The notes beneath the pieces are model-generated. The model was not told the origin of the DNA. It saw only the letters and a program-made list of their open reading frames with translations, and did no database searches. Position numbers and translations under genes: made by a program. A stretch of DNA of 33,917 nt, from the NCBI GenBank assembly GCA_947174385.1, contig CAMWIU010000008.1, forward strand, positions 1 through 33,917. Direction: 5' to 3'. The stretch comes from an uncultured Treponema sp. (lineage in GTDB: Bacteria > Spirochaetota > Spirochaetia > Treponematales > Treponemataceae). Below, piece after piece: positions 14,992 to 20,684 of this stretch; position 1 is the first letter of the stretch; each line of letters begins with the position of its first letter.

Positions 14992-16230
14992 TTATTTTTT
15001 CGCGTCTTTTTTCCACGGATTTATTCTCATATACGTTTCGCCGCGTTCGCTTCCGACGGAAACAATTCCGACCGGCGTGTTCGTGAACTCTTCGATGAAC
15101 TCGATGTACGCCTTGGCGTTTTTGGGCATCTTGGAATACGAGCCGCATTCCTTGAGATTTTTCTTCCATCCCGCGAACTTCTGCAAAACTGGCTTCGCCG
15201 CGTTGAGTGCCGGAATGCTCGTGGGAAATTCCGTGACGATTTTTCCGTCGATTTCGTAGGCGACGCACGCTTCGATTTCGTCCATCGTGTCGTAAATGTC
15301 CAAATGCGTGAGCACGAGCGAATCGATTGAATTGACATGGCATGCGTAGCGAAGCGCGACCAAATCCAAATATCCGCAACGGCGCGGACGGCCAGTCGTC
15401 ACGCCGAATTCGTTTCCGGTCTTGCGCACGAAATCACAAAGTTCGCCTTCGCTTTCCGAATTGAATTCGCTCGGCATAGGTCCATTTCCCACGCGAGTTT
15501 CATACGCCTTAAACACGCCGAAAATCCTGTCAATCGCGCGCGGTCCGATTCCTGAACCTGTCGAAGCCCCTGCGGAACAAGATGCGCCGCTCGAAACATA
15601 AGGATAAGTTCCGCTGTCGATGTCGAGCATCGCGCCCTGCGCTCCTTCGAACAAAATATTTTCTTTGCGGCATTCCCACATTTTTTCCGCGATGTTCACG
15701 CGCATTGAAAGAAGCCGCGCCATATAAGGCTCGAGGAATTTTTTGTCCGCAGCATCCAAGTCGTCCATCTTTTCCTGCCAATCCAAATCGGCAAGGCGAA
15801 TTCCATCGCGCTCGGATTTCTGCGAATATGTCGTTCCGATTCCGCGCCCTGTCGTGCCGATGGGACGCTTGCGGGCGGCATCGCGTTTTTTGTCCATCTC
15901 GCGGTAGCCGGGCAAAACGATGTGCGCTCTGTCCGAAATGAAAACGCGACCTTCCCATTTTATTCCGTTGTCCTCAAGCATTTTCAACTCTTCGAAAAGT
16001 GCCTCAGGATCGATTACCATTCCAGAGCCGAGAAACACAGTTTTTTCAGGATAAAGAATTCCCGAAGGCACTTGGTGCAGCGCGTACTTTTTTTTGCCGA
16101 CAACAATCGTGTGGCCGGCATTCGCGCCGCCCGCGAAACGCACAACGTGCTTTGCCTTCTCCGCCAAAAAATCAACAATCTTACCTTTGCCTTCGTCGCC
16201 CCATTGAGCGCCCATCACAACAACATTCAT
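14992..16230 (-). CDS. purA: adenylosuccinate synthetase (start MNVVVMGAQWGDEGKGK)
   Basis: GAQWGDEGKGKIVD, GGANAGHTI, GTTGRGIG motifs; SD GGAGG upstream of ATG at 16230. Confidence 0.97.
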   Translation of the reverse strand: MNVVVMGAQWGDEGKGKIVDFLAEKAKHVVRFAGGANAGHTIVVGKKKYALHQVPSGILYPEKTVFLGSGMVIDPEALFEELKMLEDNGIKWEGRVFISDRAHIVLPGYREMDKKRDAARKRPIGTTGRGIGTTYSQKSERDGIRLADLDWQEKMDDLDAADKKFLEPYMARLLSMRVNIAEKMWECRKENILFEGAQGAMLDIDSGTYPYVSSGASCSAGASTGSGIGPRAIDRIFGVFKAYETRVGNGPMPSEFNSESEGELCDFVRKTGNEFGVTTGRPRRCGYLDLVALRYACHVNSIDSLVLTHLDIYDTMDEIEACVAYEIDGKIVTEFPTSIPALNAAKPVLQKFAGWKKNLKECGSYSKMPKNAKAYIEFIEEFTNTPVGIVSVGSERGETYMRINPWKKDAKK

Positions 16231-16252
16231 CAAAAGGCCTCCAAACGAAAAG

Positions 16253-16281
16253 AGTATATCACAAAACGCGCGTTTGTGCAA
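16253..16281 (-). promoter_or_regulatory. sigma70-type promoter of purA with a palindrome in its spacer
   Basis: Minus strand TTGCAC-N17-TATACT; plus strand CACAAA-ACGCGCG-TTTGTG at 16260-16278. Confidence 0.65.
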
Positions 16282-16341: not shown

Positions 16342-17310
16342 TTATAAAATCCGCTCTTCGCCGACAACATCATCTTCGTACATGTCATTCGTGTGTAAAA
16401 AATCGAATGCGCCCAAATACACTGTTTCAATTTCTTCCGCGACAGAATCTTCGCATTCGTAATCTATGGAATATTTTAATTTTTCCATGAGAAAATGCGG
16501 TATCTCGGATTCTTGTTTTTTGCCTTGCGCATTTCCGTTGAGACTTTGCGCCGATGAATCGAAAAGCGAATTTACAGCCGCGTCTTTGTCTTCTATCGTG
16601 AACGGCAGAAACAAATAGAGATCGTCTCTGTGCGTTTTAAAATTTAGTTCGTTGTTCAAAAGTTTCACAAGGCACTTGTTTTCGCAAATGCAAACTTTTT
16701 CATCGTTTTCAATCGTGCGCCTTTGCACAAAAAAGTGATTGCGCAAAAATATTTGTCCGCCATCGGAAACAGTCGTTCCGGAAATATCCATCCGAGCTTC
16801 CTTGACTTTTCCAAGGCTTCCGTCATTCCGCTTTTCTCGCTCGACAAGTCCGTATTTGTCCGCAAGCTCGTTTAAATATGCAATCCAAGCATCGGAAAGT
16901 GCCTTGCTCGCGCCGCTTTCTTTGCCTCTATACTTTTCACGAATCGCGACAGAAATTATGTAGATGTGACAGCCCGGCACATAGTCCGTCATTTCTTCCG
17001 GCTCAATGTCGTCATCGCGGATTTGCTCGCTTCCGCACATTATATCATGGAATGTTTCTTCGTTGACGGGGAAAAAGTTTATGTAGCCCGCAGTTTCGCC
17101 CGTCTCCGCATTTTCCAGCACGACAAACGTTTCCTTGTTTTTGCGATAACGCTTTTCCATCTGCTCGAGCGCGCCTTCCATGCCGAGGTCGGAGTAAACT
17201 TCTTTGTCTATGTCCATTATCTTTTTAAGATAATCAAAACCGAGTTCCTCGCCTTTCAGGATTTTGTAGGTCATAAAGTCCTCCTTAGAAAAATCATTTA
17301 TATTGACCAT
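16342..17310 (-). CDS. GNAT-like N-acetyltransferase domain protein with long C-terminal extension
   Basis: VVLENAETGETAGYINFFPV...IISVAIREKYRGKESGASKALSDAWIAYL resembles GNAT motif A. Confidence 0.6.
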   Translation of the reverse strand: MVNINDFSKEDFMTYKILKGEELGFDYLKKIMDIDKEVYSDLGMEGALEQMEKRYRKNKETFVVLENAETGETAGYINFFPVNEETFHDIMCGSEQIRDDDIEPEEMTDYVPGCHIYIISVAIREKYRGKESGASKALSDAWIAYLNELADKYGLVEREKRNDGSLGKVKEARMDISGTTVSDGGQIFLRNHFFVQRRTIENDEKVCICENKCLVKLLNNELNFKTHRDDLYLFLPFTIEDKDAAVNSLFDSSAQSLNGNAQGKKQESEIPHFLMEKLKYSIDYECEDSVAEEIETVYLGAFDFLHTNDMYEDDVVGEERIL

Positions 17311-18236
17311 TACATTGTGCGGTCGTCAATACTTTGAATATTGGTTTTTTCATCCACTGTATAATCGTAAAGCGTTTCAAGACTGCGGTTAGGAAGGGCA
17401 TTGTTGATATTGACATCATTTGTCTTCGCAAAATCGTGCAGACCATACAAACTTTCGTTATACAAGGCTAACTCTACAACTTTTTTTAATACCGCGCTAT
17501 CTATACCTGTGTTAAGACTAATTGAAGTTAATTCTTCATTCATAATTTCTTTGGCTTTCTTGTTGTTATCAGCAGTTAGGTCGTCGTAATTAAGGTTACC
17601 AGCATTTTTTAACTCCAACTTGAAAAAGGAGTTATCAGCACCAGTTATTTCTTTATTTGTTGTAAATCCTTTGGCATTTTTCCAATCACCCATTGATTCA
17701 TTATAGGCATTCGCTGCTAATAAATGGTAAGTGGCTCGGTATCGGTTAAGTTTAGTGGTAGTAGAAAGATTTTTTTCAAATTCGGCAAAAACTTGGGCAA
17801 TGGCAAGATTATTTGCGTCGATATTATCGGCTATATTTTGATTATAGTTAAAACTATTTAACACTGTTTTGATTTTTTTACCCAAGGTAGAAGATTCATA
17901 CTGCAAGTCTTGGTTTAATGCGTTAACTTTTTGGTTCATAAATGTTTTAGCGTTGGTGTAGCGAGTTTCAAATTCTGTATCTTGGTTAATGTCGTATGAA
18001 GTCCAATCGGCATTGCTTTCCACAAATCGTTGTCCGCCAAATTCTTCGTTGATATAGTATGTAGGTTGCGTGTTTTGTCCGTTACCACCATTGCCGCTGC
18101 CATCTTGTTCGATAACATTGCCACCTGCCGGTTGGCTGCAACCCGCGGTACCCGCCATTAACGCGGTCGCCAAAACGCCCGTTAATAATCCTTTGGTGAA
18201 ATATTTGCCTAATTTCTTTAATTTATTATTTTCCAT
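17310..18236 (-). CDS. predicted lipoprotein, function unknown (start MENNKLKKLG)
   Basis: N-terminal basic/hydrophobic segment with lipobox MAGTAGC; SD AAAGGAAG; stop overlaps the downstream GNAT ATG (TAATG). Confidence 0.75.
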   Translation of the reverse strand: MENNKLKKLGKYFTKGLLTGVLATALMAGTAGCSQPAGGNVIEQDGSGNGGNGQNTQPTYYINEEFGGQRFVESNADWTSYDINQDTEFETRYTNAKTFMNQKVNALNQDLQYESSTLGKKIKTVLNSFNYNQNIADNIDANNLAIAQVFAEFEKNLSTTTKLNRYRATYHLLAANAYNESMGDWKNAKGFTTNKEITGADNSFFKLELKNAGNLNYDDLTADNNKKAKEIMNEELTSISLNTGIDSAVLKKVVELALYNESLYGLHDFAKTNDVNINNALPNRSLETLYDYTVDEKTNIQSIDDRTM

Positions 18237-18270
18237 TCTTCCTTTGTCCACTCACTTCTTTCTTCTCAAC

Positions 18271-18350
18271 TACGAAAAATTAAGTGTTCGCAAAGAATAT
18301 ACACGAAAAATAACGTGTAGTCAAGCAAATTTTACGAAAATTGAAGTATT
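18271..18350. promoter_or_regulatory. triple 18-bp operator-like repeats, 31-bp spacing
   Basis: 18271 TACGAAAAATTAAGTGTT; 18302 CACGAAAAATAACGTGTA; 18333 TACGAAAATTGAAGTATT. Confidence 0.8.
18296..18324 (-). promoter_or_regulatory. sigma70-type promoter of the lipoprotein gene
   Basis: Minus strand TTGACT-N17-TATATT; the spacer is operator repeat 2. Confidence 0.75.
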
Positions 18351-18358
18351 TTTTTACT

Positions 18359-18703: not shown

Positions 18704-18800
18704 TGGAAAGCCTACGAATTTTCAATGATTAAAATTTTTAATGATTAAAAATTTGCATGAAAAACCGTATGAATTTGTAAACATTAAAAATTTTGAAGAA

Positions 18801-18961
18801 TTTTTAATGATCTATTACGAGCGTTTTTAATAGTCTATAACGTACGTTTTTAATGATCCATCACGGTCGTTTTTAATAGTCTATCACGTAGGTTTTCAAT
18901 GATTGAAAAGTGCCGTTTTTAACAGTCCTTAACAAGGGTTTTCAACGATTGAAAATCGCAT
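18801..18961. repeat. seven-unit degenerate tandem array, exact 23-bp period
   Basis: TTTTY at 18801, 18824, 18847, 18870, 18893, 18916 and 18939. Confidence 0.88.
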
Positions 18962-19172: not shown

Positions 19173-20684
19173 ATGGCGTATTTTTTTGAAGAACCTTCAC
19201 ACACTTTCGACGAATATCTTTTGATTCCGGGCTACACTTCCGCGGAATGCATTCCGTCAAATGTTTCTTTGCGCACGCCGATTGTGCGTTTCAACAAGCG
19301 CGCGGGCGAGCAAAGTTCCCTCTATATGAACATTCCGATGGTGAGCGCGGTGATGCAGTCGGTTTCCAACGACAAGATGGCGATCGCGCTGGCAAAGGAA
19401 GGCGGCGTTTCGTTCATTTTCGGCTCGCAAAGCATCGCAGACCAAGCCGCAATGATTGCCCACGTCAAAATGTACAAGGCTGGTTTTGTCACGAGCGACA
19501 CGAACATTCGTCCGAATCAGACTTTGGCGGAACTCACGAAAAAAATCGCCGAAACCGGGCATTCTACCGTCGCAGTCACCGAAAACGGCGAGCACAACGG
19601 AAAGCTTGTCGGCATTATCACCGAGCGCGATTTCCGGCTTGGACATTGCTCAAGCGATGCGACTGTAGGCGAATACATGACGGCTCTCAAGGATTTGGTC
19701 GTGGGGCACAGCGACATCACTCTTGAAGAGGCGAACGAGTTGATTTGGAAGCACAAAATCAATCAGCTTCCCGTGGTGGACAAAGACGGCAATTTGCAAT
19801 ATTTGATTTTCCGCAAGGATTACGAAAGCCACGAGGAGCACCCGAACGAACTTTTAGACAGCGACAAGCGTTACATCGTGGGCGCGGGAATCAACACGCG
19901 CGACTATATGGAAAGAGTGCCGATGCTTCTTTCGGCTGGCGCGGACATTTTCTGCCTTGATTCTTCCGAAGGTTTCACCGAATGGCAGCGCAGGGCGTTG
20001 AACGACATTCACACGAAATTCGGAAAGGACGTGAAAGTGGGCGCGGGAAATGTCGTGGACGCGGAAGGCTTCCGCTTTTTGGCTGAGGCTGGCGCGGACT
20101 TCGTGAAAATCGGAATTGGCGGCGGCTCAATTTGCATCACGCGCGAGCAAAAGGGAATCGGGCGCGGACAGGCTACTGCCACAATCGAAGTTGCCAAGGC
20201 GCGCGACGAATATTTCAAGGAAACAGGAATCTACGTTCCGATTTGTTCGGACGGCGGAATCGTGCACGACAACCACATCACGCTCGCGCTTGCTATGGGC
20301 GCGGATTTCGTGATGCTCGGCCGATATTTTGCGCGCTTCGACGAATCGCCAACAAACAAGCTCATTGTCAATGGAAACTACGTCAAAGAATATTGGGGCG
20401 AAGGCTCGAACCGCGCGCGCAACTGGCAACGCTACGATTTGGGCGGCGCGAAAAAAATGGCGTTCGAAGAAGGCGTGGACAGCTACGTTCCTTACGCGGG
20501 AAGTTTGCACGACAATGTTCAAATTACGCTCAGCAAAATCGTTCACACGATGTGCAATTGCGGCGCGATTTCGATTCCTGAATTGCAGGAAAAAGCGAAA
20601 ATCACTTTGGTAAGCCCCGCGTCAATTCGCGAAGGCGGCGCGCACGATGTTGTCGTAAAGAACACTACCATTCGCGCGGAATAA
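19173..20684 (+). CDS. guaB: inosine-5'-monophosphate dehydrogenase with CBS domains
   Basis: [58 protein letters not shown]. Confidence 0.97.

Follow-up and report, generated by a model that had tools for sequence, protein, structure and literature searches.

Analysis of a 33,917-nucleotide stretch of DNA (hereafter the window), which makes up a single contig from the metagenome-assembled genome of an uncultured Treponema species, revealed three repeats between a gene encoding a 114-aa regulator of the XRE/Cro-CI type and the divergent genes of a predicted lipoprotein and a GNAT-like protein. These repeats are very likely three operators of the adjacent XRE and would form a cooperative switch of the repressor type with autoregulation that is one of a large family. 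A preliminary description of this DNA had proposed the repeats as operators; its finding was right and understated, the locus exemplifying a three-operator module that extends across a family.

The XRE locus of the window

Features of the locus are collected in Table 1. The close relatives of the source genome are named Treponema and Spirochaetaceae, and some of their isolate names indicate rumen, horse and deer guts, many others giving no source. Regarding the divergent genes, a search of 58 relatives gave one weak match only for the lipoprotein (28% identity, E 2.3e-4), for which padloc found no match either, and the GNAT-like gene was not found in these 58 genomes. The two genes probably share one operon. 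As neither has a convincing homolog among the 58 relatives, they look like accessory cargo.

Table 1. Features of the XRE locus, with positions in the window.
Feature	Position	Strand	Remarks
purA	14992-16281	-	flanks XRE locus
GNAT-like acetyltransferase	16342..17310	-	Acetyltransf_1 just below cut-off; one-base overlap with lipoprotein stop
Divergent cargo, 308-aa predicted lipoprotein	17310..18236	-	no significant match in Pfam, PHROG or NCBIfam
Operator O1 (predicted)	18270..18287		dyad CTACGAAAA/ATTAAGTGT; about +2 to +19 of predicted cargo transcript
-10 box TATATT, lipoprotein promoter	18296..18301	-	best sigma70-like site of region
Operator O2 (predicted)	18301..18318		perfect outer dyad ACACG-8-CGTGT; occupies cargo promoter -35/-10 spacer
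-35 box TTGACT, lipoprotein promoter	18319..18324	-	best sigma70-like site of region
Operator O3 (predicted)	18332..18349		centre 18 nt 5' of XRE ATG; overlaps XRE -10-like box
-10-like box TATTTT, XRE	18347..18352	+	-12 to -7 of start codon; family consensus TAnnnT at -12
XRE/Cro-CI regulator, 114 aa	18359..18703	+	HTH and C-terminal two-helix hairpin, possibly SinR-like fold
guaB	19173-20684	+	flanks XRE locus on other side from purA

The regulator was identified as an XRE/Cro-CI HTH protein by its matches to HTH_3 (PF01381, 36.1 bits, cut-off 23) and the CI-repressor-type HTH (PF07022, 37.3 bits, cut-off 22), and the 434 repressor is its best sequence match in the PDB. In the AlphaFold2 model (mean pLDDT 88), a short flexible linker joins an HTH of five helices to a C-terminal two-helix hairpin, whose placement relative to the HTH is uncertain at a pTM of 0.57. 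The best fold match in the PDB is SinR (Foldseek 1b0n_A, E 4e-4; TM 0.52-0.58, rmsd 9.6 over 110 columns), the good overlap lying mainly within the HTH, and the structure of the controller protein C.AhdI is also among the fold matches.

The direct repeats TACGAAAAATTAAGTGTT, CACGAAAAATAACGTGTA and TACGAAAATTGAAGTATT begin at 18271, 18302 and 18333, respectively, the later two being 78-83% identical to the first, and the exact spacings of 31 and 31 bp claimed in the preliminary description were borne out. The equal-spacing triple score is 41, which none of 2000 dinucleotide shuffles of 18237-18358 reached (maximum 35). Also as described there, repeat 2 occupies the 17-bp spacer between TTGACT and TATATT (18302-18318), and repeat 3 ends 8 nt 5' of the XRE start codon. 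The inverted repeat ACACG-8-CGTGT that had been noted in repeat 2 is indeed present, with the refinement that repeats 1 and 3 are dyads too, since inverted-repeat scoring resolved each repeat as an even-centred 18-bp dyad; a scan for ungapped direct-repeat triples was weaker than the dyad model because the sites are palindromic and imperfect. The overlap of repeat 3 with the -10-like box of XRE is a feature absent from the earlier account.

In the 2.3-Mb genome, the pattern YACGAAAAWTNAMGTRT has exactly three matches with zero mismatches, every one at the window locus. With up to two mismatches, the consensus of the locus gave 46 matches genome-wide vs. 31 for the reversed pattern, two of them upstream of paralogs; a large regulon of the window XRE is not claimed, as the consensus gives little signal in the genome outside its own locus.

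Other repeats were observed downstream of the regulator. The region directly 3' of XRE (18717-18800) holds AT-rich repeats as well as an inverted repeat of 23 nt (AAAATTTTTAATGATTAAAAATT). Between it and guaB, a 23-bp unit (TTTTTAATRRTCYATHACG and 4 further bases) is repeated in tandem (18801-18955), and contigs C113, C126 and C4 of the source genome also have single or few copies of the unit.

A family of XRE loci with a shared three-dyad layout

About 10 XRE paralogs were detected in the source genome. Of 59 related genomes, 33 have relatives of the regulator, and a profile search extended the family to 117 of 244 genomes of the order, with up to 19 copies per genome. Most members share their upstream region with a divergently transcribed, unrelated 'cargo' gene, and these intergenic regions are built alike: there are three dyads, separated by about 30 and 31 bp, with the middle one in the -35/-10 spacer of the cargo promoter and the centre of the third some 18 nt 5' of the XRE ATG. 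The window locus fits this layout (31, 31, 18) with a score of 17.6 against a threshold of 7.71.

The layout was scored with a three-dyad scan that uses a private site model for each locus (d1 27-34, d2 29-34, third centre 14-23 nt before the ATG; pass threshold, the 99% quantile of 500 shuffles), and 72 of the 100 family loci of a first set passed. Because these limits had been picked after a preliminary view of 36 of the 100 loci, the scan was repeated on a replication set of 70 non-duplicate loci from a named genome collection with the threshold and all settings fixed beforehand, and 58 of the 70 passed, compared with 5 of 350 shuffles. Under the same scan, regions upstream of other genes at the same loci passed in 2 of 144 cases and random genomic windows in 12 of 451. 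Among the constrained solutions for 130 loci, O1 and O2 are 30.3 +/- 1.7 bp apart and O2 and O3, with 29-34 permitted, 31.0 +/- 0.9 bp, the latter distance being exactly 31 in 78 loci; unconstrained scans of both sets left the spacing peaks, including that at 31, unchanged. The loci below threshold (28/100 in the first set, 12/70 in the replication set) include many distant homologs, and some of them may carry degenerate or asymmetric sites.

The preliminary description had staked the operator reading on conservation of the repeats with the regulator, and such conservation is seen in the direct ortholog L148 from a water-deer Treponema, which is 79% identical to XRE in the best-matching segment and does not differ from it in the recognition helix. 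Its three TACGAAAATTGAAGTAT-like repeats are spaced by 32 and 31 bp, with the distance to the ATG unchanged. The downstream gene neighbour of L148 differs from that of the window, and the comparison of the lipoprotein there covers the 36 cargo residues present on the contig. In another Treponema MAG (L149), the C-terminal part of the XRE ortholog alone is present, with no HTH, and no operator array was found there. This truncated ortholog (1500-1735) adjoins a gene for an ABC-transporter ATPase, and the repeats of 18717-18800 in the window are partly conserved on the contig at about 1750-1800.

Downstream of XRE, no conserved partner of the antirepressor or SinI type was found at the family loci. 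A phage origin was considered and rejected, as phage records gave one close relative only (37%) and the module is mostly non-viral; viral contigs yielded 12 relatives, one only with a match better than E 1e-10. One copy of the module is on a T. saccharophilum plasmid.

Promoters, transcript of XRE and the proposed switch

Regarding the cargo strand, 36 of 72 loci have a best promoter whose -35 begins 14-16 bases away from the centre of O2, a position seen in 4 of 360 shuffles. On the XRE strand, TAnnnT stands at -12 of the ATG in 65 of 130 loci (next-best position, 22), and a Shine-Dalgarno-like motif was detected at 1 of 130 XRE starts as against 44 of 71 cargo starts. With its -10 box at -12 and a Shine-Dalgarno motif almost never present, the XRE mRNA is probably leaderless, and given such a message O3 would cover the -10 region of XRE.

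In the proposed mechanism, an XRE dimer would sit on each 18-bp dyad, the sites being about three helical turns apart and so presented on one face of the DNA, and the C-terminal hairpin, which may be SinR-like, could join the dimers in a cooperative complex. Occupation of O1, at the start site, and of O2, between -35 and -10, would block the promoter of the lipoprotein and GNAT-like genes, and the overlap of O3 with the -10 of XRE would give autoregulation of the probably leaderless message. Across the family, the layout is fixed, the operator letters diverge together with the recognition helix, and the divergent cargo is interchangeable. As to site strength, O1 is usually the best match and O2 the weakest on average, contrary to the prediction for a pure copy of the lambda O1-O2 arrangement; a lambda-like affinity order O1 > O2 > O3 was checked and set aside, as O2 and not O3 is the weakest match, which is plausibly due to the coexistence of O2 with promoter elements.

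Activation by XRE would be a different use of the same sites. In restriction-modification (R-M) controller proteins and in lambda CI at PRM there are models for an activator or dual regulator, and XRE would then stimulate its own weak promoter from O2 and silence it from O3 at high level. The family profile of the XRE promoter, which has a -10 box and no clear -35, is consistent with this, as are the fixed distance of O2 upstream of that promoter (centre about 49 bp before the start site) and the fold match to C.AhdI. However, O2 also occupies the -35/-10 spacer of the cargo promoter, usually a repressive position, and its distance of -49 is unlike that of lambda OR2 at PRM, which is -42, so that we regard activation as unlikely, if well worth keeping in view beside the repressor-type switch.

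Operator letters follow the recognition helix

Operator similarity was correlated with the identity of the recognition helix in the first set (Mantel r 0.35; partial 0.30) and in the replication set (r 0.46; partial 0.40), in each case with 0 of 2000 permutations reaching the value, the partial tests removing the identity of the remaining protein. In the first set, operator similarity was 0.90 for pairs with a helix identity of at least 0.9 and 0.06 for pairs below 0.12, and the residues most associated with the operators (R32, E35 and K31) all lie within the recognition helix; in the replication set, S14, T19 and V20, outside the helix, associate as strongly as residues inside it. Shared descent explains part of the signal, because operator similarity is predicted by protein identity outside the helix as well. 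Held-out sites were ranked top among all operators of their own genome in 120 of 132 tests, chance being 7.9.

From this covariation and the ranking of held-out sites, the binder is very probably the adjacent XRE, and the same evidence points to paralogs that would be largely insulated from one another in vivo. The proposal of the preliminary description that the repeats are XRE operators is thereby supported at the sequence level, paralogs keeping the geometry and changing the letters of the sites with the recognition helix. As an alternative to the adjacent XRE, for which the case is one of sequence comparison, a different regulator, either global or encoded at another locus, might bind the repeats with XRE as a bystander; this is very improbable, as the sites follow the recognition helix of the adjacent XRE in two locus sets rather than one global motif, and their geometry is tied to the genes of the XRE family.

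Cargo genes

Clustering by similarity placed the 71 cargo genes of passing loci in 49 groups, and a lipobox-like N-terminus was seen in 20 of the 71. Recurrent types among 80 scanned cargo genes include EcoRI-like methylases (5), List_Bact repeat proteins (4), acyltransferases (4), TM2 (3) and LPP20 (3), and glycan enzymes and two PLD-helicase proteins were also present. The five loci with an EcoRI-like adenine methylase (L079, L096, L107, L115, L123) differ in operator type, and L049 and L079 have an identical recognition helix and different cargo. Since the same kind of cargo occurs with different operators and the same helix with different cargo, regulator and cargo reassort, as judged from these comparisons.

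Such reassortment raises the question of whether the repeats are recombination or mobility sites for cargo exchange and not operators. Similar cargo is found with differing regulators, and the neighbourhood of the window differs from those of the contigs that carry the orthologs (L148, L149), as exchange at the repeats would have it. Against this, the sites lie at one side of the cargo only, within promoters and at fixed positions, no recombinase is a recurrent neighbour and the letters track the recognition helix, which makes a recombination function highly improbable. Chance similarity, for which the AT-rich region might give scope, we count as refuted by the shuffles (0/2000), the conservation in the ortholog and the family-wide replication.

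Several small cargo products were also observed. Those of two loci (L082:1122-1283 and L140:1028-1219) are short Cys-containing peptides with a common ...SYAAGCP... motif, resembling precursors of peptide natural products, and a small protein recurs at four loci (L060, L062, L064, L074), three of the four beginning near ...LCGSAPE/D....

Comparison with known systems

Like the right operator of lambdoid CI/Cro systems, the Treponema module has an XRE-type HTH regulator and three predicted dyad operators across divergent promoters, one of them overlapping the promoter of the regulator. It differs in centre spacing (about 31 bp, vs. about 23-24 bp in lambda), in its location among chromosomal genes and not in a recognised prophage, and in its divergent partner, which is not a second repressor. 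Furthermore, the 114-aa XRE consists of HTH and hairpin only and does not have the C-terminal LexA/S24-like domain of lambda-type CI, which serves oligomerisation and cleavage.

R-M controller (C) proteins are likewise small XRE autoregulators, and some Treponema cargo genes encode EcoRI-like methylases, whereas the module has a single divergent cargo, three near-equally spaced sites and cargo that is mostly non-R-M; in the window, neither the lipoprotein nor the GNAT-like protein has an R-M match.

The filamentous phage repressor RstR shares the small size and a divergent partner gene, and its model is the best-scoring curated NCBIfam model (NF041951, E 2e-10, residues 4-106 of 114), the score of 40.7 bits falling below the 80-bit cut-off for membership. 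Tetrameric cooperative binding by RstR is reported (Kimsey and Waldor 2004, as cited in PMC3323433). Unlike RstR, the Treponema regulators have host-type cargo and many paralogs per genome.

SinR/SlrR of Bacillus, the best fold match, combine an XRE HTH with a C-terminal two-helix hairpin to which that of the Treponema regulator may correspond and which in SinR forms dimers and tetramers, and several copies of the SinR consensus occur per promoter (PMC3163267). SinR sites, however, are 7 bp long in varied orientations, with no fixed 31-bp array of three, and no counterpart of SinI is conserved downstream in the Treponema family.

The CI/Cro immunity region of phage phi11 has three homologous operators between divergent genes and an XRE-type HTH, but its operators are 15 bp, its CI is a two-domain protein of 239 aa and its divergent partner is Cro (PMC3991615). 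In a survey of palindromes upstream of XRE genes, binding by XRE proteins was found by EMSA for 9 of 10 tested interactions; neither Treponema nor divergent genes nor arrays of three sites come up in its main text (PMC12565409).

Significance for gut treponemes

The class of mechanism is known from phage-type repressor switches. The open-access literature that was searched contains no description of a Treponema tri-operator XRE family, and within that literature a cargo-reassorting set of such switches in spirochaetes appears to be undescribed.

The recurrence of the three-site layout, with other letters for each regulator, before well over a hundred related regulators of gut treponemes points to a large number of gene switches that are separate from one another. 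Tentatively, it may be that gut treponemes and related spirochaetes use mutually insulated, leaderless, self-contained switches of one repressor and three operators, the family having up to about 19 members in a genome. Such switches would reassort with accessory cargo of surface, glycan, methylase and defence-like types and let each cell set many accessory genes independently, possibly in a bistable manner. If the three-operator reading of the family is right, functional predictions would follow for more than 100 unstudied regulators, and the family would be a natural source of repressor-operator pairs, probably orthogonal, in which residues can be matched to bases and which would be useful for specificity rules and for circuit design. 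It would also offer a candidate explanation for the control of variable surface and accessory genes in treponemes, which are hard to manipulate.
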